A stretch of DNA of 64,000 bases from Aspidapion aeneum (lineage: Eukaryota; Arthropoda; Insecta; Coleoptera; Brentidae), in NCBI GenBank assembly GCA_963576565.1, contig OY755040.1:88651002-88715001 (forward strand), written 5' to 3'. The position numbers were made by a program, and so were the translations under genes. This document shows, one piece after another, positions 49,891-64,000 of this stretch. The number at the start of each line of letters is the position of its first letter. Within the stretch, counting starts at the first letter, position 1. Under the pieces are notes generated by a model, which searched no databases, was not told the DNA's origin, and saw only the letters and a program-made list of their open reading frames with translations.

Positions 49891-51437
49891 TTTAATAAGG
49901 CATTGCAAAACTTTTGAATAATATTCCTCATATTTTACTACTTTAAAACTTAAATATTATCCAAATCCTTTAAAAAATTAGTGAAATCATAACAAAAACA
50001 TTTCATGTAAAAAAATCCAAGTACGCGAGAGTGGTGTTCCGTTAAAAGAATTGAGATAAAAGTAAAGCCAAGTTCTCCAATACAAATTTTAAAATGAAAG
50101 ATTCCCACTAGTTTGGAAATGTTTTTGTAAACTTGGCTATTACGGCTGCAAATGACTCTTAGGCACAGTGCTAAATTGAACATAAAGATATTATAATTTT
50201 GATATGACTTACTTGGAAATTAAATAATAAAGAATGTCAAAGCTGCAAATTGACAGTTGGTCTCTCCTCAGTAAACACCATATTTCCTATTTCTTTTTCA
50301 GATACCGACATGATCATTTCATTTCATGGTTATGCTCGGGCTGAATGAGGCCTAATGAGGCCGGAACGCTTCCCCGAGCTACCTTTACCTCTGAGGACTT
50401 GCCCGTAAAACTTTATTGTTAAGACTTTTTACCTCGTGAAATTCCTTCAAATTTAAAAAAATCCAGGGCTTAGGCTGTCTTCTGGGAGCCGAAACGCGTC
50501 CCCAAGCTACTTTACCTCTGAGGATTCGTCCGTGAAACTTTTTTGATAAAGAATGCCATTTACAAATTCTGACATCACGTCAACATTTGAGCCTTGTGAT
50601 TGCTGGTGGTTATTATTAGATTAATAATATTCGCGTTGGGTTGTGGCGTGGGCAAACACATCATTCCTGTATATGGTTTTCCTGTTTTAAACGGCTTAAC
50701 TAATTATCACAATTTCTTTTTTATTAAATTTATTGTTACGGATAAATAATTTTTTTTTAAAATTCTGTCATATCAATCATGTCATAAACATTGCAAACCC
50801 AAAAATAAATATTTTTGACAATTTCCTTTTAATGTTTATCGGATCTATGTGTAGAATTTTTGACAGTAAGTAAACCCTTTTTCAACAAAAATTGTATTTA
50901 GGACTTTCAAGCTATGCAACTTTTCTGAGATCACAAAACCTCAAAATGTGTTTTCCAAAAAAAATAACAGCAAGTTTTTCTATAATGAAAGTATAAATGT
51001 TCGGTTTTTTATATAAAGACAGTATGTTGTCACCATTAATCTTTTCTTACAAACTTTTGCAACCTTTTAAAGTTGTAATATTTCCTAAAGTATCCCTAAA
51101 TAAAAGTAACACGTTGTTACCTTATATTTAATATTTAAATTTAGTTAGATAAACTATTATGACTTACGCCATACGTTATCACCTTATATAACCGGCAACA
51201 GTGCCTGAGGTGGCAGGAAATAGCACATATCCAAAGGTTGTATATCGGTCTGAGGTCCGAACGTATTCCACGTATTTATCAAATATTTGAAAAAAAATAT
51301 TTACCCCTCTTTTGAAATTCTGGTAAAAGAACTTCCCCTCATGTCATATATGTACCTATATATGGGCTAACACCACTAGAAATAGGTGAGGTCAGGTCGT
51401 CATATCCTTAACGCCGAGGTGACAACGCCGAGTGCAT

Positions 51438-51439
<2 letters not shown>
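49891..51439. other. Non-coding stretch with one imperfect tandem pair
   Basis: Two imperfect units about 128 bp apart (from about 50358 and about 50486) share CCGAAACGC/CCGGAACGC, CCCCNAGCTAC and TTTACCTCTGAGGA, then GTCCGTGAAACTTT-like words. No gene is seen elsewhere in the stretch. Confidence 0.6.

Positions 51440-51476
<37 letters not shown>
51440..51476. repeat. (TA)n microsatellite
   Basis: An uninterrupted TA run lies directly outside the left LTR of the gypsy element. Confidence 0.95.
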
Positions 51477-51483
<7 letters not shown>

Positions 51484-51817
51484 GTATTTTAGATGCGAGC
51501 TTAATAAAACTCTTTTTTAAAAAAATAACTTTATTTTATTTAGTCACAAATAAGACAACTTTAAAGTTAGATGTGAACCGTTTAGATGCTAAGTCAAACC
51601 TAAGAGACGTTTACCTGCTAGCCTACTTATAGTTATAAGAGCGCTGACACAGCTTCGCGTGGGTTCCCGAAGAATATGGAAGTAAGCATGTTTATGAAAT
51701 GACTTTTATATGATCTTGAAAACAATAGCAATATTGTGCAATTATGGTACTACATCTTAACTTATTCTAGAAACTACGCATTAAGTAAATACGCCTACGC
51801 ATATTTTTAATATAACA
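51477..51817 (-). repeat. Gypsy 3' LTR
   Basis: On the minus strand it begins TGTTATATTAAAAATATGCG directly after a polypurine tract ATTGCGGGGGAGT (51818-51830). A TATA-like CATATAAAAG (about 51700-51712) and AATAAAATAAAG (about 51528-51540) follow. The outer end at 51477 is an estimate because the partner LTR is outside the window. Confidence 0.65.
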
Positions 51818-51907
51818 ACTCCCCCGCAATTTAAAAAGTTAGTGCTATACAATGCAGTAACTTTTATTCACAAAATTAAAAAAAAATCCTAAAATTACAA
51901 AATACAA

Positions 51908-52108
51908 TTAGACATAAGTTTTTCTTAAAACATTAGTATTTAATTCAATATCTTCTTCGATTGGCTCTGTGAGCCTTATTGATGGCCTGCGCCTAGCTAT
52001 TGAAAATCTTTTGCCTAAACTTGATATATTTGGTGATGGTGGAAAATCATTATTATCAGTATTATTTTCGATGCCTATACGTACATTTTTAGCTCTTCGA
52101 TTTTTACA
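51908..52108 (-). pseudogene. Gypsy env cytoplasmic tail fragment
   Basis: An open segment reads VKNCKCKNRRAKNVRIGIEN and then an acidic stretch ending at a TAA just before the 3' untranslated part. Its place between the env membrane segment (beyond the non-LTR insertion) and the LTR suggests it is the basic cytoplasmic tail of Env. I first took it for a host terminal exon. The polypurine tract and LTR to its left argue against that. Confidence 0.5.
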
Positions 52109-52119
52109 TTTACAATTTT

Positions 52120-55100
52120 TCACCTGCAAGACCTTTTGATGAAATCTTAACATTTACAGAACAACCTCAAGTTGTCAGCCGCAGTAACCACCCCGAAAGC
52201 ATTTACCTAAATTTTTCAGGTAATCTTGATAGTGGACATTTTGACTTACTACTTCCCTTAACCTTAAACGACACCATACCTTTAATTTCTGACCAGCCCA
52301 ATCAATGCCTTTTATGTAGCAAATCTTTTAAAACCAAAAACGGCCTTAATATACACAAGTCAAAAGTCCATAAGGATTTTGGAGTTCTAAATTTAAATTT
52401 CTCATTAAGTAATATAACAGATATTGACAATCATCCAAAAATCCCAAAATAGCTCTTCACCTCTTGGAGAAAGAATCAAATCCCCTAATTCTCCAAAATG
52501 TATAAATAAAATTGAATGTTCTATCTGCGGAAAGCTTTTTTAAGGTGAAAGAGGTTTGAAACAACATAAATCAATTAAACATATTTCAGAAGAAATGACT
52601 GACGATTATATTTTAAGTAGTGAAGGAATAAACGAATATTTAGCACAACTTAGATCTGCTGTCCCAGTAATTCGCCGCATTCCAAAAGGTGCTCGTTCCA
52701 GTATAGCAAACGAACTATCAAGCCTTTTAAGGAAATGTACATCCGAAAACTCTTCCCGATCATGGTTTAATTTGTTTCTGTTCCCTTATGCTGTTTTAAG
52801 GCTTCCTGAAAAATCAAGAAAAAATAAAAAGCATTCTTTAACCACTTTAATAAAACAAAATCTATCATCATGGATAAAACAAAAATTTCTATCAAACAAG
52901 TTACTTCAAGATTTTTATAAACCTTCGCAGTCACAGTCAAAACCAAAAATGAAGAAATCTAATGTCGACCATTTAAAAAATAAAATTAAAAGTAAACTTT
53001 CTGAAAACGATGTCAATGGAGCTATACGACTACTTTGTTCAGAAGATACATTAGCAAACAATAATTCAACTACATTGGAAAAACTGGAAGAAAAACATCC
53101 ATCTGCTCCACTGAATAAAGTTTTTCCGGATCCACCTGATCAAATTTTTTTTTCATAATTAAATATTTCCAATTCCGAAATAAAATATTTGATTAATTCC
53201 TTTAGACCAGGATCGTCTGGTGGTTTAGACGCCCTTCGTCCGCAACATTTGAAAGACTTAATTCAAGATGAACTAGGTAACACCTCGCATAATCTTATTG
53301 AAACAATTTGCTCTTTTATTGATTTTGTTTTAACTGATTCCCTTCCAAATTCAATCCGTCCAATTTTTTTTGGAGCATCACTATGTGCATTAAACAAAAA
53401 AGATGGCGGTATACGCCCTATCGCAGTTGGTATGTTTTTTCGCAGGCTTGCTACAAAATATATTTGCTCTAAGGTTTACTCACAACTCTGCAACTATTTT
53501 CGTCCTCATCAATTGGGTTTTGCTACCAAATCCGGCTGTGAAGCCACCGTCCATGCAGTTCGAAAATTTATGTCTTTTCCTCATAATAGCCCAAAAATAT
53601 TGTTAAAAGTTGATTTTTTCAATGCATTCAATATGATTAATAGAGGCGATATAATACTTAAAGTAAAAGAGACTATTCCCCAATTTTATAATTTCATTTC
53701 TTCTTGTTACAGGGAGCTAATTTTTTCTCAGCGAGGAGTGCAACAAGGAGACCCTATAGGTCCACTTTTATTTTGCTTATCAATTCAACCTATCATTCTT
53801 TCCTTAAAATCAGAAATAAACTTATGGTACCTAGATGACGGTAGCCTTGCTGGTGAGCCAGAAATCGTATTAAATGATTTTAGAAAAATTCTTAAAGAAT
53901 GTTCTTCTGCTGGCCTACAAGTAAATTTGAAAAAATGTGAGTTCTTCTTCTCTTTCTTAAGATTTTAGAATTAATAATTTTGTAATACAAAATCCTGAGC
54001 TTTCATCAATATTACAAATAGATAAAGATGACCTAACACTTTTAGGAAGCCCTTTTTCTAATCAATCTACTTTTGACTGTTTACAAAAGAAAATTAATAT
54101 TTTTAATAAATTATCAAAAAAACTATCTTTAATTGATTCACTCTCTGCCTATTACCTTTTAAAACATTCTTTTGCAGTACCTCGAATAAGTTATTTACTT
54201 CGCTGTGCTCCTTGCTGGAAAGTCCAAAATCTTTTATCAGATTTTGTTAAAAATTTAAAAATAACTTTGGAAAATATTACCAACTGCCATATAGGTAACA
54301 CTGCTTGGTCTCAATGTAACATTTCCATAAAAATGGGAGGCCTCGGCATTCGTGATGCTTCTAGTCTTTGTTTTTCTGCATTCCTTGGCTCAGTTAATGA
54401 CGCTTCAAATCTTCTTAAAACTATATTATCGCCTGAAATTTTAAGTTATCCTGACTGTGATTTCAAAGAAGCTTTTGATTTTTTTACTTCTTTTTCTTAT
54501 ATCAATAATATCCCTTTCAATAATGTCTATCGTCAAAAAGATTTTGATAATATAATTTGTCGTTCTAAATTTGATACAATTTTTAATTCATCCAGTGATC
54601 CCAAACATCATGCTAGGCTTCTAGCTCTGCAAGAACCGGAGAGCAACGCCTTGTTACAGGCTCTACCTTCGCCTGCTCTAGGGAACCTTTTGGATGATTC
54701 CACTTTTCGTATTTCCATCTCGTTACGTTTGGGCCAACCTTTGTGCGAGATACACGACTGCACTTGCGGCAAAACCGTAGACATTTATGGGCACCACGCC
54801 CTAAGCTGCTACAAAAGTGCAGGTCGTTTATCTCGCCACGGGTTGCTCAACAATATTATCAGGAGGGCTCTTGTATCTGCAGGAATACCCTCTGTGCTTG
54901 AACCTCCTGGTATGTTCAGGGGAGATGGAAAGCGAGTAGATGGTTTGTCTTTGTTCCCTGGTGCAGAGGAAAATCCCTAATTTGGGACGCCACTTGCAGA
55001 GATACTTTTGCATTTTCTTATCTTGACAAAACATCAATAAAATCAGGAGAAGCTGCCCGCAACGGAGAAAAACAAAAGCAAAAAAAATACGAAGAGCTGG

Positions 55101-55334
55101 AAGCCAAAGGGTCGAAACATTGGGGCCCTGGGGTGAAGAAGCTAAATCTTTTGTTCAAAAATTATCAAAATTAATAAACAATAAAAATGCAAATTGCTTC
55201 ATTAAACAACAAATAGGTCTTGCAATTCAACGCGGCAACGCAGCTTCAATTCTAGGAACAATCCCAGACGATACTGGTTTAGAGGAATTTTTTTATTGTT
55301 AATGTTTCCTTTTTTTTTTTGTTTTTTTTTTAGT
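52120..55334 (+). mobile_element. RLE-type non-LTR retrotransposon inserted in gypsy env
   Basis: It is flanked by an 11-bp target duplication TTTACAATTTT (52109-52119 and 55335-55345). It is 3.2 kb and encodes zinc fingers, RT, a CCHC motif and a restriction-like endonuclease. The 3' untranslated part is short and ends in T-rich sequence. It lies opposite to gypsy in orientation. Confidence 0.8.
52270..55302 (+). pseudogene. Zinc-finger RT with restriction-like endonuclease
   Basis: Two N-terminal C2H2 fingers are visible (CLLCSKSFKTKNGLNIHKSK at about 52305-52370 and CSICGKLF then GLKQHKSIKH at about 52520-52580, with a stop inside). The RT reads GSSGGLDALRPQHLKDL, KKDGGIRPIAVG, KVDFFNAFN, GVQQGDPIGPLLF and the YLDD box at about 53828. 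Then come a CCHC motif (CTCGKTVDIYGHHALSC, about 54763) and an endonuclease core (GDGKRVDGLSLF, then LIWDATCRDTF, about 54930-55000). The end is AIQRGNAASILGTIPDDTG. Stops at about 52450, 52541 and 53157 and shifts near 53965 and 54970 make it inactive. It belongs to the RLE-bearing non-LTR group; the clade is not certain. Confidence 0.82.
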
Positions 55335-55383
55335 TTTACAATTTTATTTATTTCTTTGATTTTATTATTAATTTTATCAATTG

Positions 55384-57068
55384 TTATACATTTATTATAC
55401 CTTGTTTTATGTAAAAAAAAATAAATACACCTAATACTAAAGCCAATACAAGATATGTTAGCCATAAATGATATTTTTCAATTTCAGGTTCATTGATTAA
55501 ATCATCCAATTCATTTGCATATTGATCTAATTTATGTTTAGCAATTTCCAAATCTTCCAAATTTAGTTTTGTTATTTTTAAAGGTTTTAATCTAGAAAGA
55601 TTTCTAAGTTTTTCTGGATATTTTTCGCAACAATTGAAAGGAATTTAAATAAAATTTGAATAATTATAACTTAAATCAAGTGTTTGTAATTGATTGGCTT
55701 GGATTTTAGTTGATCCTACAAAAGCTGAGCAATATGGTTTTAAAGACAAAATTAAATTTTTTGTTACAATTTTCGAAATAGTATCAGTGTTACATTTTAT
55801 TGTAATTGGAAGTTGATTTGTTACACTTATTAGCCAAATTTTGTAAAATTTGAATATTATAATCTTCCGCTAAAATCAAAACTAACTTACAGGTTTTTGG
55901 AAAAGTTAACAATTTTTGAGTTCTTAATAATTGAGCTTCACAAATTGAATTGCTATCAATCGGAAGAGGATATAAATTTTTACAAATTTTTATTTTATAG
56001 CCCAAATCCCTACAAGTGTCAATTTCCGATAAAGACAAATAGAAATCATCATCATTATCTTTAGCAATATATTTCTTACTAACAGGCAAAATATGATGTA
56101 ACATAGTTCGATTATCATAAATTGGTATTGGGTACAATCGGAAAACGGAATACCATTCTGGTCGAACCAATGGTATGTCCAAGACAAAAACAAGTCTTTC
56201 ATTTGTAATATAAGCATTTAAATCAATAATATCCAAGTATGTTGCAATTCTGTCGTCCATGGGTGCTACCGGTAAATTATTTGTATGTACATTTTGGGCA
56301 ATTTGTTTTAAAGCATTAGTTGATTCATTAGGAAGGATAATACTTTTATGAATAATTTTTAATCTGGCAAAAGAGATTGAATCTAATTCATCCCTTATTT
56401 GAGATTGAATATAAGTGTATGATTCCAATAATTGTTCACAAAGATTATTAAAACAAAATTTAAGATTAAGAACTTCGATTTCATCATGAATCTGATGTAT
56501 TGATTTTGAAATTTCAATTATATTGGAGTTGAAACGTTCTTCATCAATTTGAAGTTTGCGCAAAGTTGCATTAAATTGTTTTATTACTGACGTAGTAACA
56601 CTTATTTGATTTTTCATTAAGTTTTTCAATTTTTTATCATCTTTTTCAATTTTATTGATACAATTTTCATAATATTGACCGTCAGCTGCATCTAAATTTC
56701 CCGTTATGTACTTCCAAACAGTACCGAGAGCGTTTAATAAACCTCTTTTACATCTTGGTGTGTAAGGCATGTCTGAATAGATTTCATTAAATTTATTGGT
56801 TATATCATTGGAAATTTGAAATAAAAGTGACACGTGTGGTCTTATATCTAAGTGTTGATTGATTAAGCATTAAGCGTAAGCTATCTAAAATAACATTATT
56901 ACTAATAAAAGCATCTTGCAAAGCTTTAATATCTTTATAAACAAATAAGATCCATTTATCATTGGATACCTTTATACTAAGTTCCTTATGAAAATAAACA
57001 CCTACGGTATTATTTATTTTATCGATTTTGTATTGTGCTTTTCCCCATCCGATAAGGAAAACGAGCAA
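55384..57068 (-). pseudogene. Gypsy envelope gene, baculovirus-F-like, broken
   Basis: The N-terminus has a short hydrophobic signal-like stretch (LVFLIGWGKAQ, about 57035-57065). A frameshift near 56820 follows, then a furin-type site RCKR (56745-56756) before GLLNALGTVWKYITG. Long helices and an ectodomain with several Cys come next. A frameshift at about 55795 and a stop near 55650 precede the membrane segment (WLTYLVLALVLGVFIFFYIK, about 55400-55465). The order signal, cleavage site, fusion-peptide-like region, helices and membrane anchor matches errantivirus Env proteins. The cytoplasmic tail is displaced by the non-LTR insertion. Confidence 0.82.
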
Positions 57069-57164
57069 TCTGAAACACGGAAAAGTTTCAGTCAGAATCA
57101 GAGTCTGAATCGGGTTTATGACAAGGTTTTAAAAGATCAAAATTATATTTTGAAGTTTGTTTAG

Positions 57165-58632
57165 TTACTGGATTATAAACAGTTGCGGAATTATTTGAAT
57201 TATTGCTTTAATTATAAAAGGTCCATTAAATTTAGGTGATAATTTTCCAGTAATTTGAATTTCTTTCACGAAACCTCTATCGCCTACTTTAAATTCATGA
57301 TTTGGAGTTACGTGTTTATCGAATCTTTCTTTAGCTTTTTGTTTTGACAGTTTTGTTCTTGATCTAGCTATTCGATAATATTGTTTGATCCTTGCATTTA
57401 AATCTCTGATATATTTAGAAATAAGTTCTTTTTCATTGTAAAGAGTTTCTGGGGGTCTTGCTGCTGTATGTCCAAAAACTAACTCGTAGGGTGTAAATCC
57501 ATGAGTTTTACATGTTGAATTGTTATAACAAATGACAGTAAATGGTAACAATTGTAGTGGATGTTCTTCAGGACTTTCTGTTTTACAAACTCTGATCATT
57601 TCTAATAATGTTGCATGAAATCTTTCTAAACTTCCATTTGATTGTGGATGTCCTGTACTTGAAAAAGTTAGTTTGATATCGTAAAGGAGTTCCATAATGT
57701 TGAAAAAATAATAATAGTGTATTAACAATTGATTTTGCAGTTTTATCATTTAATGGATAAGCTTGAATGAATTTTGTCAATTCGTCTTTTACTGCTAAAA
57801 CCAAATTTCTTTCTGGAATTTCTAAAATATCTGGATTAATTCTTTCAAATGGTGTTTTTGGAGTTTCAGTAATCACAAGTGGATTGTCCAATTTTTTTCT
57901 TAAAATTTTATTTCTTTGACATATTTCGCATTGGTTTATAAATTTTTCAACATCTTTGGTTAAATTTTTCCAATTATATTTTTCTTTAATTCTCCTGATT
58001 GTTTCATTAATTCCCCTATGAATATTCCTTTTTCCGGAATGATATTGATCAATTATTATTTGTCTTTGATCTTCTACTGGCTCAGTAACTATGTCTTGAC
58101 AAATTCCTAAATTTAAATCTTTTTCAGCAAAGACAAAACAGAGCATTTCTAAAATTGGTAAATCTACATTATTTTCAACATAGTATGTTTTGGAGATATC
58201 AATGTCATTTTGACATCTACATAAAATTTTGAAAAGAGTTAAATTGGCTTCTTCCTGAACATGGTACTGGAATTATAAAATACTTTCGTTTATTAACTGT
58301 TTTTGAAGAATAAATATTAATTTTATTTAAATCAAAGTTAAGCTCTTCATCTAATATGTCACTTATTATATTATGATGTTTTTCTTTTAAATTATCTTGT
58401 TGAAAAATGGTTATAATATTTTTGTGTTTTTTATCCAATAGTTGATCATTTGTATATCTAATCTTTGAATAATCAATTAACGATGTTGTTTGATATAAAT
58501 TGTGAAATCTCTTAAATTCATTTTCCAAAGTTTGAGGAGACATTAAAGCTAGTTCATCTTCAACTATATTTTCTGATTCATTGAAATTTTCATCCTCTGT
58601 AAGGGCATTAATTAAAGCAGATCTTTTGTCTG
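57165..58632 (-). pseudogene. Gypsy integrase with deletion in the catalytic core
   Basis: A linker (to about 58217) precedes the HHCC zinc site (YHSGKRNIHRGINE to CEICQRNK, about 57890-58050). The core then begins (RINPDILEIPERNLVLAVKD). The run from the HYGTP block jumps almost directly to YDIKLTFSSTGHPQSNGS. The segment that normally carries the second catalytic Asp is missing, while the Glu (GSLERFHATL) remains. The C-terminal part (VGDRGFVKEIQITGKLSPKF) ends at 57165. A frameshift near 57670 coincides with the deletion. Not functional. Confidence 0.85.
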
Positions 58633-59055
58633 GTAAAATATAAATATTTATTTGTATATCAGTTGATTGAAAGGTTGATTTAATCATTGCCAATATAACG
58701 TTCCAATCGAGTGAGTCTAAACCACATGCTATTTTGGGTATAGCTAAATATTTCTCATTATTTTGCAGAAGAATATTTTTTAGGTTTTGCAAAATTTGAT
58801 AAATTGTATCATATGTTTGCTTTTGATAGTATAATTCTTTTGTAACTAAATAGTTCTGTTGGATAGTTGTAAAGTTGCTATTTTACCAATTTGTTTATTT
58901 TGTTCTTTTAAATAATCTACATTATCATCATCATCAAATCTTTCTTTGAATTCTTTTGCAATTCCTTTTTTCATTTTTAAATCTTTTGATACACAATGTG
59001 CTAATGAAAAATTTTGAGGTGCATCAAATAAGTTTCCATCGAAAATTTTAATATT
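58633..59055 (-). pseudogene. Macrodomain of TARG1/OARD1 type within gypsy pol
   Basis: Directly after the RNase H (ADALSRI) and before the integrase linker the frame encodes a macrodomain of about 140 residues. It reads IFDGNLFDAPQNFSLAHCVS, then DLKMKKGIAKEFKERF (59055-58935 region). After one frameshift near 58850 come YLVTKE and QTYDTIYQIL, then AIPKIACGLDSLDW and FQSTDIQINIYIL (about 58633-58750). This matches the TARG1/OARD1 (Poa1-like) family from N- to C-terminus. The Lys of YLVTK (58838-58840) and the Asp of CGLD (58715-58717) correspond to the catalytic Lys and Asp of human TARG1 by my recollection. These enzymes remove ADP-ribose from proteins. The role in a retroelement is unknown; countering host ADP-ribosylation is an inference. 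Confidence 0.85.
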
Positions 59056-59114
59056 TTCTTCATTAATTTGCTTTTGAAACATTACTAAGTGATATATTTC
59101 GTTTATGTTTTCTT

Positions 59115-59797
59115 CAATTCTTATTCTAGAAAGGGCATCTGCATTTTTGTTAATTTTTCCTGGTTTATAAATTATTTCATAATCATATTCTTCCAGTTTT
59201 AATCTCCATCTGGCTAAACGACTTCCAGGATCTTTAATTGAGAATAACCAAGTTAAAAGACGATGGTCTGTGATTAATTTAAATTTTCTTCCGTATAAAT
59301 ATGGTCTGAAATGTTTGACTGACCATACAACGGCTAAAAGTTCTCTTTCAATGACAGAATATTTTTGTTCCGTATTATTTAAAGTTCTTGAGGCATATGC
59401 AATAGGCAAATCTTTTCCTATTGGTCCTTGAAATAACACAGATCCTATTGAATAACCACTGGCATCAGTTGTTAAAAGAAAAGGTTCATTAAAATTAAGA
59501 TAAATCAAAATTGGACTGGTTGTCAAAATATTTTTTAATTTTTCAAAAGATTCTTTACAAGTTGCGTCAAAAACAAATGGTTGATCTTTTTGCAATAATT
59601 TAGTTAATTGTTTAGAAATTTTGGCAAAATCTTGGATAAATCGTCGATAATATCCTGCTAATCCTAGGAAACCTTTAATTTCTCTTTGATTTTTGGGTTC
59701 TGGAAAATTTTTCAAAGCTGAAATTTTATTTGGATTAGGTTTTACACCTTTATCTGTTATTAAGTGACCTAGATATGCAACCTCTTTTCGTAGGAAT
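59115..59797 (-). pseudogene. Gypsy RNase H region
   Basis: RT thumb/connection (REIKGFLGLAGYYRRFIQDF) leads to RNase H with LTTDASGYSIGSVL, VIERELLAVVWSVKHFRPYL, LITDHRLLTWL and NADALSRI. All four acidic catalytic positions are visible. It is continuous in frame with the first part of the macrodomain. A frameshift near 59800 separates it from RT. Confidence 0.9.
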
Positions 59798-60520
59798 TCA
59801 CACTTCTGGTTGAATCTTTAAATTTGCTTTTCTTAATCTAGAAAAAACTTCTGTTAGTCTTTTGACATGTTCATGAATTGTATCAGAATAAATAATAATA
59901 TCGTCCATGTATACCAAACATCTTTCATTTTGGATACCAAGTAAAATATTGTCCATAACTCTATGAAATGTTGATGGAGCATTTTTAAGTCCAAGCGGCA
60001 CTCTAATGTATTCATAATGACCGTTTTCAACTAAAAAAGCTGTTTTTTGAGTATCTTTAGGATCTACCTCAATTTGGTGGAATCCTGATGCAAGATCAAG
60101 TTGAAAAGTATTCAAAATGTCCTAATTGATCAAGTAAATCTGATATCATTGGCAAAGGATATTTATCATCAATTGTAATTTCATTCAACTTTCTGTAATC
60201 AATTACAACTCTCCACTTTTGTTTCCCTGAAGCATCTAATTTCTTTGGTACTACGCATACTGGAGAAGACCATGGAGAAACAGAATGTTGAATTATTCCC
60301 TCTTCTAACATTTTTGAAATTTGACTTTTTACTTCTTGTTTATGTACTTGAGGATATCGATAGGACTTTGTAAAAATTAGTTTGGTTTCTTTGGTGTGAA
60401 TGGAGTGTTTAATTTCACTTGTAAAAGTTAAATTATCTCCCTCTAAGTAAAATATATCCGAAAAATCTAGACCAAGTGATGTTATGATTTCTTTTTCTTC
60501 GTCATTTAAGTGATCTAATC
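59798..60520 (-). pseudogene. Gypsy reverse transcriptase
   Basis: It has the MLEEGIIQHSVSPWSSPVCV block, WRVVIDYRKLNEIT, LDLASGFHQIEV (first Asp), TAFLVENGHYEY, VPLGLKNAPSTF and the YMDDIIIYS box (about 59893-59920). Upstream, the fragment before 60311 is in other frames. Frameshifts lie near 60110 and 60311. Motifs are intact in sequence but not in frame. Confidence 0.9.
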
Positions 60521-60906
60521 TTAATTGTTTTGGTATTTCATGTTCTCTTATTATTGGTTTATTTTCTTTTAGATTAAAACATACTTCAGTTGTTTTTAAG
60601 TTGCCGGGTAAATTTTCAAATTCAAAATTATCAAAATTTATCGTTTTAGTAGTTGCATAGGCATTAATAATTGTTGTACAAAATTCTCCTTTTTCATTTA
60701 TTTTAACAACGCAATTAGGAATGTAACATTTGTCTTTTTGTTGAGCTAGTAAAATAACTTCTGTATTTTTTAATTTAAAAGCTCTTCCTGTTCTTCCTTC
60801 TATTTGTATTATATTTTTTATTGGTTCATTATTTACAGTAGTCTTTTTGTTCTGGGTTAGTTCTATATAAAGGAACTGTTATAAAATTGGTAATCAATTT
60901 ATTATT
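60521..60906 (-). other. Decayed protease-RT linker of gypsy
   Basis: No continuous frame. Short pieces look like the region between protease and RT, with many stops. Confidence 0.5.
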
Positions 60907-61200
60907 TTAATAATCAATAATGCAATTATAATGTTTTAAAAAATCTGATCCTACTAGTCCATCAAATCCTATGATAAGATCACAAACTAGTACTTTAAAA
61001 GGATCTTTCAAAGTAAAAGGAATTAAAACTGATTCTTTCATTGAAATTGGTTCATTTGAAATGCCTTTGACAGTTACATTTTCAGGAAATCTTTGTAAAT
61101 ATTGCTCACATGTTTTTGGTTTAAAAACAAGCACCTGTATCAACTAAAATTTTAAATTTTTGTGTAATGTCTGTAAAATAATAAAGATTACTTGAAAAAG
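60907..61200 (-). pseudogene. Gypsy aspartic protease
   Basis: KILVDTGACF with the D-T-G active site lies at about 61128-61160, followed at once by a frameshift. The rest (KVLVCDLIIGFDGLVGSDFL, the second conserved protease block) follows in the next frame and ends at 60907. Confidence 0.8.
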
Positions 61201-61260
61201 TTAAAATTTGATGTTTTACATGAATTCGTTTTGAGTTTGGTTCGCTTGATCTTGTTCGTT

Positions 61261-62011
61261 CTATATTGACATAGTTTGAAAATTTATTAACGTTTGATCG
61301 ATTTCCGAGGCTTGCATTCGAAAATTTAGATTTTGTTCATCATTAGATTCATATTCTCGTTCAAAAGAAACATCTTCATATTGCTCAAAATTACTATCAT
61401 AAAAATTTTGATCATTGGAAAAATCATTAGTTTGATTTTGATAATAAGTATCTTCAAAATCTTGAGTTTCACTTTCTACATTTTCCATAAAATGCATAGG
61501 TTTATTTTGAAAATTTGATCTTTGATTATTGTTTGATTGAGGATTATTATTTGATAGAGACCTAAAATAATTTCCTTGATTATTTGGTCTATAATTGTTA
61601 GATGTTGGTGATTGATTTGGTCGATAGTTTGACGTGGAAGGTTGGTTTTGTCTAAAATTTGACGTGGAAGGTTGATTTTGTCTATAATTTGGGGTAAAAG
61701 TTTGAGTTTGTCTATAATTTGACGTGGAAGGTAAAGTCGGATTAAAGTTTGGTATGTAATTTTGAATAGTTCTACTATTTTGTTTTGTTCTACACTCATG
61801 TATTAAATGTCCCGATCTTTTGCAAAAAGAACAAATTTTTTGTTGATTAGGTTTTAATTTTTGAGAAAATTGTAATTTATGAAGTCTTTGTTTTTGAAAA
61901 TATTCAAATTGAAGTTCAGATTTAACACAAGAAACTGCTTCTAAAAATGTTGCAGGTTTACTTGCTCTTACAACTAAACTTAAGTCTTTATCTAACCCTG
62001 TTAATATAGTA
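61261..62011 (-). pseudogene. Gypsy gag, 3' part
   Basis: After the tyrosine-recombinase insertion, gag continues through TGLDKDLSLVVRASKPATFL to a zinc knuckle CSFCKRSGHLIHEC (about 61792-61833). Four repeats of about 33 bp encoding an STSNYRQNQP-type Asn/Gln/Pro motif follow (61606-61735). An acidic tail (ESETQDFEDTYYQNQ) ends at 61261. A frameshift lies within the repeats. Confidence 0.82.
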
Positions 62012-62016
62012 GTTTA

Positions 62017-62133
62017 CCTAACTAGTGCGGAAAGTGCCTCTTTTCCGCACGCGATTGCAGATGGCCAAACGACGCGATAGCGGAGTTTGGCCAGCAATCA
62101 AGTGCGGAAAAGACACTTTACGCACGAGTTAGG
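62017..62133. repeat. Left-end hairpin of the tyrosine-recombinase element
   Basis: Arms start CCTAACTAGTGCGG and end CGCACGAGTTAGG. They pair over about 50 bp with a few mismatches and small bulges and enclose the loop GACGCGATAGCGGA (62071-62084). Within each arm lies the motif TTTTCCGCAC or its complement, also used at the right end. Confidence 0.9.
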
Positions 62134-62214
62134 TACATTATTTTTTCTATAAGCGTGAGGAAAAAACTAAAAATTAATCAGAAAATTATTTATATTCAAC
62201 ACATTTTAATCAAA

Positions 62215-63386
62215 TCAATTATTATTATTAACATTAATATTAAAGGTGCAGTTTGTAGCGTGCTGTAAGTTGATAGCAGAGGCAAGTGTTTTCTCAAATG
62301 AAGTGGCAGATTTGAAACTTGGGTTTTGGTTCTCCACTGCGTTCTCCAAGTTTTCGGAAACATCTGTTGCAACTGTGGTCATGCATTTGGGGCTGGATTG
62401 AGGCACTTTGGAAGGTTGTATGGTAGAAGAAAGTTGCTGACTAGTTGAAGGACCAGGGTGGCTGAACTTCAAAATTTTATTCGAAATATTTTTTTGGAAT
62501 CCAGTTGAAATGTCAAGGTACCCTTCTGCGACACTTGAAGATTTCCATCCACCGAGTCGTTTGATATTGGTTATTCCTTCGCCTGAATCTGCCAACATTG
62601 TTGCGGCAGAACGTCGGAAGCTGTGGCCCGTGTATAATTCTGGATTTGAAAGCTTCAGATAGCATGCGATATCTGATGGCATTTTACCGAATGTATTAAT
62701 TCCAATGCATTGTACCGTACATGCTCCTTTTTTGTAGTTTACGAAGAACCGTCTATGTGGGGTCTCTGGTTTCCTTAAGTTGACATATTTTCGGATCAAT
62801 TGGAGAAGTTTTCCATTCTCGGCTTCTTCTGAAATAGCAAAACTTCTAAATGTATGGTTTTTTGAGTCAGGAATTTTTATAATGATCATATTTCCTTTTT
62901 CTTCAATGTCATCTAGGCACATTTTTGCTAGTTCTTCACGGCGACATGCGCCCGCCAAACCAAAAATCGTGGCAACTTTCATATGCAAATAAACTAGGTC
63001 AGGAGCTTCGCTTAAAAACTTAAAAATTTCTTCTTTTGTGAAGATTTTTGCCTTCTTGGGTCTGAATCCAACGTTTTGTTTTCTCAAGTAGGCCGTAACT
63101 TTAAAAAAATTGCTTAAGTCAACGTTTTTTCTGAGTTTTATTACACTTTTGAGCATAGAATACCTCGACCAAAGGGTATTCGGTTTGCACGTTTTGGAAA
63201 TTTCGGAGAAATATGCCAAAAAACAGCTTCTTGAAGGGATTTGATGCCTTTAGCGTGGCACCATCTCTCAAAGAAACTATATTCCTTCTCATACCTGTGA
63301 CGAGATTTTGAAGGAAGCAGGTCCAAATTAGCGATTCTAGCGGCTTCTAGAACTGACTGGGGTAGATCTTCGTCCGAAGAATCCAT
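62215..63386 (-). pseudogene. Tyrosine recombinase, one frameshift
   Basis: It starts at the ATG at 63386 (MDSSDEDLPQSVLEAARIAN). A SAM-like N-terminal DNA-binding domain (RYEKEYSFFERWCHAKGI) runs into a six-T run near 63213, where one base appears to be missing. The rest is open to 62215. The catalytic domain shows the full set: Arg (GACRREEL), Lys (PDSKNHT), HxxR (GHSFRRSA), Trp (GGWKSSS) and the nucleophile Tyr (AEGYLD). The C-terminal about 85 residues are Ser/Asn-rich and end in an Asn run. By family it cuts and rejoins DNA through a 3'-phosphotyrosine link. Many insect genomes carry relatives as uncharacterised proteins, to my knowledge. Apart from the frameshift it looks young. Confidence 0.88.
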
Positions 63387-63742
63387 TGAAAATCTGATTT
63401 TTTTGTTTGAAAAATTCAAAAGACGCTTGTATCTGCAAAATTGGCTTTGTTTTGACAGTTTGTTTGTACTTTGTTGCTATGGTGATTTAAGATGCCAAAT
63501 CTAAAACCACTAGTGTTCATTGTTGTTTGACATTGACAATGACGATATTTATACCGGGGAGGTTAAAAACTTAATAATTTGAACCTATTTTACTGAAAAC
63601 TTTATTTTATCGAAAATATTGAAAATATAGCAGAATTTTAGTCAATTTGAATATTTTTAGGATATTTCGTGTGCTAGGAAAGATACAAATGTATTTTGAA
63701 CGGTCTAAATGTTATAGAACACCTCAAAATCGTAACAAATTT

Positions 63743-63816
63743 ACTTTTCCGCACTAGTGCGGAAAAGTGGCACTTTCCACACTAAAATGCGTGCGGAAAA
63801 GTGGACTTTTCCGCAC
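63743..63816. repeat. Right-end double palindrome of the tyrosine-recombinase element
   Basis: 63743-63768 is a perfect 26-bp palindrome centred on GCACTAGTGC. 63791-63816 has 12-bp arms (GTGCGGAAAAGT and its complement) around GG. Between them is GGCACTTTCCACAC, an imperfect third copy of the same half-site. Confidence 0.92.
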
Positions 63817-63833
63817 GCTTATAGAAAAAAGTA

Positions 63834-64000
63834 TTTAAAATCATTGTTTTTATTAGTGTACCTTGAGCTTGTTTCTCAATATTTGTTAAGTCTTGTTTAT
63901 TAATTGCAGCATTTATTTTAGCAATATGGACTTGAAGTCTTGAAATAAAAGTTAAAGGACTTTCGTTTGGTAATTGAAATAATTTTTGGAGATCTTGAGT
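63834..64000 (-). pseudogene. Gypsy gag, upstream part (continues beyond window)
   Basis: The minus strand is open over the whole piece (LQKLFQLPNESPLTFISRLQ, then AAINKQDLTNIEKQAQGT), a typical gypsy Gag helix region. It continues across the transposon in the same frame at 62007. Confidence 0.8.

Follow-up and report, generated by a model that had tools for sequence, protein, structure and literature searches.

The window (64,000 nucleotides of the beetle Aspidapion aeneum, assembly GCA_963576565.1, contig OY755040.1, forward-strand positions 88,651,002 to 88,715,001, from a genome of 1.286 Gb) carries on its minus strand a broken gypsy-type retroelement made up of gag, reverse transcriptase (RT), RNase H, integrase and baculovirus-F-type env pieces, and a macrodomain of the TARG1/OARD1 type was found within its Pol region. 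This domain is a real, multi-copy and conserved fusion in gypsy Pol. It is predicted to be an active hydrolase and, in the reading to which we attach moderate confidence, strips host-added ADP-ribose from the ends of the complementary DNA (cDNA) of an env-bearing element and from its replication proteins before integration.

Identity of the macrodomain and its catalytic residues

The window copy is frameshifted. Its RNase H frame (58849-59817, minus strand) leads into the N half of the macrodomain, in which GNLFDAPQ starts at 59037 and within which the frame ends; the C half lies in a separate frame (58220-58882, minus strand; YLVTK begins at 58852) and is followed by a linker and the integrase. 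The corresponding features are listed below, with percentages referring to the relative P0006.

59131-59805, minus strand: RNase H of gypsy Pol (Pfam RT_RNaseH 1.3e-38 in 58849-59817; 76%)
58849-59067, minus strand: TARG1-type macrodomain, N half, in the RNase H frame (phmmer to TARG1 chain 4j5q 2.4e-8, query 6-71; shuffle control)
58631-58852, minus strand: TARG1-type macrodomain, C half, in another frame (phmmer to 4j5r 8.3e-14, query 1-73)
58838-58840 and 58715-58717, minus strand: equivalents of Lys84 and Asp125, worked out from the alignment of the C half to TARG1
58262-58555, minus strand: linker from macrodomain to integrase (63% to the P0006 linker; junction letters)
57570-58254, minus strand: integrase H2C2 and core, in more than one frame in the window copy (Pfam Integrase_H2C2 5.3e-17; 65% and 85%)

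Each half was compared alone with the PDB and matched human TARG1 at the values listed, scoring 118 (N half) and 162 (C half) against maxima of 51 and 48 among 1000 shuffles of its own letters. A seven-row profile, which includes both window halves among its related rows, matched TARG1 at 1.1e-45, the next macrodomain following at 3e-8. The domain isolated from an open-frame copy of the window family matched TARG1 over nearly its whole length at 2.3e-34; its top five PDB matches were all TARG1/C6orf130, with the next macrodomain at 0.013, and the window halves gave a similar ranking. The macrodomain of a second element family, described below, matched TARG1 at 4.7e-29. A profile search of both pieces had been suggested in the preliminary description of this DNA. 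Pfam by itself was too weak to decide the matter: its Macro model gave no match in the RNase H plus N-half piece and a non-significant E of 0.11 in the C-half piece. Against a cut-off of 22 bits, this model scored the open-frame domain of the window family just below, at 21.5 bits, and the second family above, at 32-33 bits. A macro fold is predicted from homology to these solved structures. Two other identities were rejected. No MacroD1 or MacroD2 chain was present among the PDB matches of the halves, the profile or the open-frame domains, and the NCBIfam equivalog for the DarG antitoxin scored 35.9 bits with the window C half and 43.2 bits with L007, a copy of the second family, against a cut-off of 250, with no match to the N half.

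The catalytic dyad of TARG1 consists of Lys84 and an acidic residue at position 125, written Glu125 in a review (PMC7050489; this and the other PMC sources are cited from excerpts of the papers). The PDB chain of TARG1 has Asp, not Glu, at 125, and a chain offset of 6 fits both sites (Lys at chain position 78, Asp at 119). Both equivalents are held by the window copy. They were followed through 30 aligned rows chosen from the fetched sequences: human TARG1, P0003 and 28 rows from elements or element-like sequences, a choice that omits L024, L026 and L028, which are frameshifted, as well as some near-duplicates. Lys84 is kept throughout, and Asp125 in every row but L059, where a His takes its place and the domain contains a stop. 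Across the 28 rows other than human TARG1 and P0003, column conservation has a median of 0.52. The domain is predicted to hydrolyse ADP-ribosyl esters through the Lys84/Asp125 mechanism of TARG1. The assignment given in the preliminary description, a TARG1/OARD1-type macrodomain between RNase H and integrase that retains the catalytic Lys and Asp, therefore stands.

Copies in the genome

A genome search with the C-half piece gave at least 152 matches at E <= 0.001 (751 candidates, 150 scored); this and the other genome count below should be read as minimum figures, and some copies contribute two matches, one from each of two pieces. More than 100 distinct places are present among the matches listed, 30 of which lie in an open frame of exactly 1446 residues with no stop in the match. 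Twelve loci (L011-L022) were read closely, and in ten of them the RNase H tail, macrodomain and linker share one open frame, the two exceptions being the window's own copy (L011), which is frameshifted, and L013, whose frame opens inside the macrodomain; in five of the twelve, a single open frame holds the whole RNase H piece, macrodomain, linker and integrase piece. The Pfam order in pieces of one copy was RNase H, Macro (the 21.5-bit match), Integrase_H2C2 and rve. The eleven best matches after the window's own were compared over more than 3 kb in 55 pairs, whose nucleotide identities have a median of 99.5% and a minimum of 97.5%; the window copy is 95.7-96.8% like the eleven. Recent spread is suggested by this median identity, and some of the eleven may be segmental duplicates.

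Relatives and other positions in Pol

Six relatives were identified in a protein search from 2255 candidates. The order RT, RNase H, macrodomain, integrase recurs in P0004 (Harmonia axyridis) and in P0005; a search for other gypsy elements with this arrangement in insect genomes had been suggested in the preliminary description. In P0008 the macrodomain (residues 1025-1152) is C-terminal to the integrase, giving the order RT, RNase H, integrase, macrodomain and a third slot. P0006, P0007 and P0009 are close relatives that lack the macrodomain. Of these, P0006 and P0007 retain the flanks of the window-family module, NADALSRI before the gap and LMSPQT.ENEF after it, and their counterpart of the linker follows RNase H and a short stretch; after the gap P0009 has other letters. 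An 18-row RNase H tree places the three relatives without the macrodomain among the macro-bearing rows, a placement that allows for more than one loss or gain of the module; the well-supported branches force just one change.

The second element family, in which the macrodomain follows a retroviral-type protease, was identified by a genome search with Pfam Macro. In L007 and L009 one open frame of 1525 residues contains protease, macrodomain, RT (recognised by its similarity to P0004), RNase H and integrase. No relative at E <= 0.01 was found among 1911 candidates in a protein search with the macrodomain of this family. A genome search with P0001, a protein from Brassicogethes aeneus, gave at least 150 matches (270 candidates, 150 scored), the window's family included. 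A further 20 loci from this search, many of them frameshifted and two of them the same place, were classified: a protease match precedes the macrodomain in 17, an RT match follows it in 15, and both are present in 13, L054 alone having neither. In none of the 20 is the macrodomain preceded by a match to RNase H or integrase. At least three slots (between RNase H and integrase, between protease and RT, and after integrase) are thus occupied in several element families; the slot named in the preliminary description is real, but it is neither the only one nor confined to a single element. Separately, L001, L002 and L003 are exons of other genes in this genome that exceed the Pfam Macro cut-off.

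An OTU-type protease was found downstream of the macrodomain in all three loci tested among the elements with the order protease, macrodomain, RT, and the OTU motif was seen in four more (L029, L034, L052 and L053). The three domains, in coordinates of each locus, are as follows.

L030, 1138-1506, minus strand: OTU domain directly after the macrodomain (6e-14)
L046, 1-1530, minus strand: OTU domain about 130 residues past the macrodomain (3.6e-14)
L044, 2523-3701, plus strand: OTU domain about 1.5 kb further on, in another frame, partial (3.7e-7)

Viral contigs were also scanned. The window piece gave no relative, and alignment A2 gave 31 IMG/VR loci (L070-L100) with distant TARG1-like macrodomains of 21-36% identity; the fetched flanks of all 31 contained no match to the RNase H, RT, protease or integrase pieces. 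They may be genes with which viruses of microbes counter host defences.

Trees and selection

On a macrodomain tree of the 30 aligned rows, those with the order RNase H, macrodomain, integrase form one group (support 86/88). A split supported at 95/98 joins this group to human TARG1 and P0003 and leaves on its other side the rows with the order protease, macrodomain, RT together with P0008 and two proteins with CCCH zinc fingers, P0001 and P0002. Just two TARG1 rows on the tree come from outside elements, several of its branches are long, and the program cautions that such branches come together at P0008. Two captures would be suggested by the split; a single clade of all 28 element or element-like rows was not rejected by the approximately unbiased test (p-AU 0.18), and a single capture stays compatible with the data. 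P0001 and P0002, in which a TARG1-type macrodomain is followed by the CCCH finger, nest with the protease-RT group; the finger is below the Pfam cut-off in P0001 and above it in P0002.

The macrodomain is under constraint at the protein level. Between the subfamilies represented by L022 and L023, the ratio of nonsynonymous to synonymous substitution rates (dN/dS) is 0.286 for the macrodomain (bootstrap 0.16-0.48), 0.116 for RNase H and 0.061 for integrase, and a second pair gave 0.30 for the macrodomain and 0.06 for integrase; the comparison between domains is rough because dS differs among them (1.03 for the macrodomain, 1.43 for RNase H, 2.68 for integrase and infinite, that is saturated, for the linker), and the constraint on the macrodomain is independent of it. 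The proportion of nonsynonymous differences (pN) is 0.243 for the macrodomain versus 0.149 for RNase H and 0.148 for integrase. Six close pairs with dN/dS of 0.44-1.34 represent decay after insertion and were set aside as evidence, and 8 of 11 far pairs were saturated at synonymous sites.

Proposed role and alternatives

Carried within Pol, the domain would enter the particle and be delivered along with reverse transcriptase and integrase. It would then remain close to the newly made cDNA, whose ends, like the proteins bound to it, may be modified by PARP-type enzymes, and could clear ADP-ribose from those ends or from proteins of the particle and of chromatin; removal of the mark might free the DNA ends for integrase or blunt host repression. 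Such a role accords with the known activity of TARG1, which takes ADP-ribose off acidic residues as well as off the phosphates of nucleic acid ends (PMC7050489, PMC8053099). The three positions in Pol fit a self-contained catalytic module, not one shaped for contact with a particular neighbour. In parp-1 mutant Drosophila, misregulated mobile elements are mainly up, gypsy-superfamily elements included (PMC7712786). That the element counters PARP-type defence is a reasonable inference, and the interpretation offered in the preliminary description is, as a whole, partly supported. Several points weigh against the proposed role. Three of the eight significant mobile elements are down in the parp-1 mutants, ten further upregulated elements did not reach significance once corrected, and the authors allow for an indirect effect (PMC7712786). 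The protein sequence of the macrodomain apparently evolves faster than that of RNase H or integrase, the existence of macro-free relatives indicates that it is dispensable in some settings, and the present data do not choose among DNA ends, Gag/Pol proteins and chromatin as the substrate.

Four alternatives were weighed. That the module is a chance chimera, an assembly join or a functionless passenger might be suggested by the frameshifts of the window copy and by the three close relatives that lack it, but is extremely improbable: a chimera or join, including the lone copy that the preliminary description had considered, is refuted by the genome matches and by proteins of other origin that share the order, and the subfamily dN/dS well below 1, together with the kept catalytic residues, disfavours a passenger. 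The domain might also serve mainly as an ADP-ribose reader that tethers the integrase or pre-integration complex to damaged or poly(ADP-ribosyl)ated chromatin, which we regard as quite unlikely overall. Some gypsy integrases are steered by chromodomains. The macrodomain adjoins the integrase in the window family and is C-terminal to it in P0008, and tethering through ADP-ribose binding is the main rival wherever the two sit side by side; moreover, human TARG1 gathers at damage sites in a manner dependent on poly(ADP-ribose) (PMC8053099). Tethering leaves unexplained, however, the slot between the protease and RT matches, far from the integrase, seen in 13 of the 20 classified loci, and pure binding would not require both catalytic residues, which are kept almost without exception.

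It is unlikely, in our assessment, that the domain is directed not at the DNA of the element but at PARP-dependent silencing once a copy has integrated, or at the ADP-ribosylation of host proteins as an antiviral response. The pairing of the macrodomain with an OTU-type protease in some families looks as if two host protein marks were being erased, but Pol products are made in small amounts and carried in particles, and such output suits local over cell-wide action. The over-expression of several gypsy-superfamily elements in parp-1 mutant flies (PMC7712786) and the reversal of protein mono-ADP-ribosylation by RNA-virus macrodomains (PMC8053099) are in keeping with this alternative, against which it must be said that no host target is known and that the effect in flies may be indirect (PMC7712786). 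Finally, a house-cleaning enzyme for small ADP-ribose metabolites such as O-acetyl-ADP-ribose, comparable to the dUTPase that acts on dUTP in some retroviruses and fungal Metaviridae, is considered very unlikely. We know of no benefit to reverse transcription from the removal of O-acetyl-ADP-ribose. In its favour, TARG1 hydrolyses O-acyl-ADP-ribose esters (PMC7050489), and Metaviridae with a dUTPase are on record (cited in PMC2774666).

Beyond the proposed removal of ADP-ribose by the Pol-borne domain, a broader scheme may be put forward tentatively, at rather less than even confidence: an ADP-ribose eraser would have been captured or moved repeatedly into at least three positions in Pol, with an OTU deubiquitinase sometimes added, as a particle-borne kit against ADP-ribose and ubiquitin defences in an arms race with PARP-type defence. 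If the domain is active, ADP-ribosylation would be a barrier that these retroelements must overcome, and the fusion would provide genetic evidence that a PARP-type defence is directed against reverse-transcribing elements. Natural comparisons are offered by lineages that have or lack the module and by its three positions, and the isolated domain, about 141 residues long, can be assayed without a working element.

Comparison with known systems

Among the open-access papers listed in the searches, none was found to report a TARG1-type domain within gypsy Pol, most subscription papers lying outside the search. Captured enzymes in reverse-transcribing elements were already known; new by these searches is that the enzyme is of the TARG1 type and is built into gypsy Pol, in three slots and in some cases alongside an OTU domain. 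The nearest precedent is provided by the macro-domain open reading frames (ORFs) of epsilon-like endogenous retroviruses of ray-finned fish (Basta et al. 2009, cited in PMC4977317). These are likewise retrovirus-like elements that acquired a macro-domain gene, but as extra ORFs in vertebrate retroviruses rather than inside a gypsy-type Pol (PMC4977317). The view that this is not a standard gypsy Pol domain therefore holds for the literature searched, with the qualification that fish endogenous retroviruses carry a macro-domain ORF.

Human TARG1/OARD1 (C6orf130; PDB 4j5q, 4j5r, 4j5s) is matched over nearly its whole length with Lys84 and Asp125 kept, but is a free-standing cellular enzyme, whereas the gypsy domain is a segment of the Pol polyprotein. 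The macrodomains of alphaviruses and coronaviruses are virus-borne, have the ADP-ribosylhydrolase fold and play a role in infection (PMC7050489, PMC8053099); they belong to RNA viruses and are treated as MacroD-type in the review, whereas the gypsy domain best matches TARG1 in the PDB. The dUTPase of betaretroviruses and some fungal Metaviridae is also a captured accessory enzyme in a reverse-transcribing element, but a different enzyme with dUTP as its substrate (PMC2774666). The DarG antitoxin and the TARG1-like macrodomains of IMG/VR belong to the same ALC1-like class; the DarG score is far under the cut-off, however, and the viral-contig macrodomains show no match to the retroelement pieces in their fetched flanks. 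Ginger1 transposases with OTU or Ulp1 likewise combine a gypsy-type integrase with a ubiquitin-type protease in a mobile element, but are DNA transposons, and the excerpt of the paper mentions no macrodomain (PMC2836005).

Other features of the element and the window

The remaining pieces of the window copy, all on the minus strand, are as follows.

61264-62013, minus strand: gag piece with a possible zinc knuckle (zf-CCHC_3 E 0.0058, under the curated cut-off)
61121-61336, minus strand: putative aspartic protease piece (LVDTGA motif, recognised by eye alone)
59843-60506, minus strand: reverse transcriptase in two frames (tblastn, P0006 pieces 73% and 83%)
57216-57563, minus strand: C-terminal part of the integrase (70% to P0006)
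55793-56869, minus strand: env piece of the baculovirus F type (Pfam Baculo_F 1.7e-25)

RT, RNase H and then an integrase with an H2C2 zinc finger make this a Ty3/gypsy (Metaviridae) Pol. The Baculo_F env downstream of Pol, examined in the window copy only, makes the element Errantivirus-like, that is an env-bearing gypsy, as the preliminary description had proposed. A search for long terminal repeats found no direct repeat of at least 60 bases in 50000-64000 that could represent them, and the element seems to extend past the end of the window. Adjoining it is an open frame of 339 residues at 53961-54977 (plus strand), with no Pfam match at E <= 0.1.

A direct repeat with 30-base spacing is present inside the gag piece (61598-61747). 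Between this piece and a further one at 63785-63997, gag-like by eye and with no Pfam match, lies a tyrosine recombinase frame (62218-63249, minus strand; Phage_integrase 1.9e-10), which we take to be Crypton-like and which is perhaps a nested insertion.
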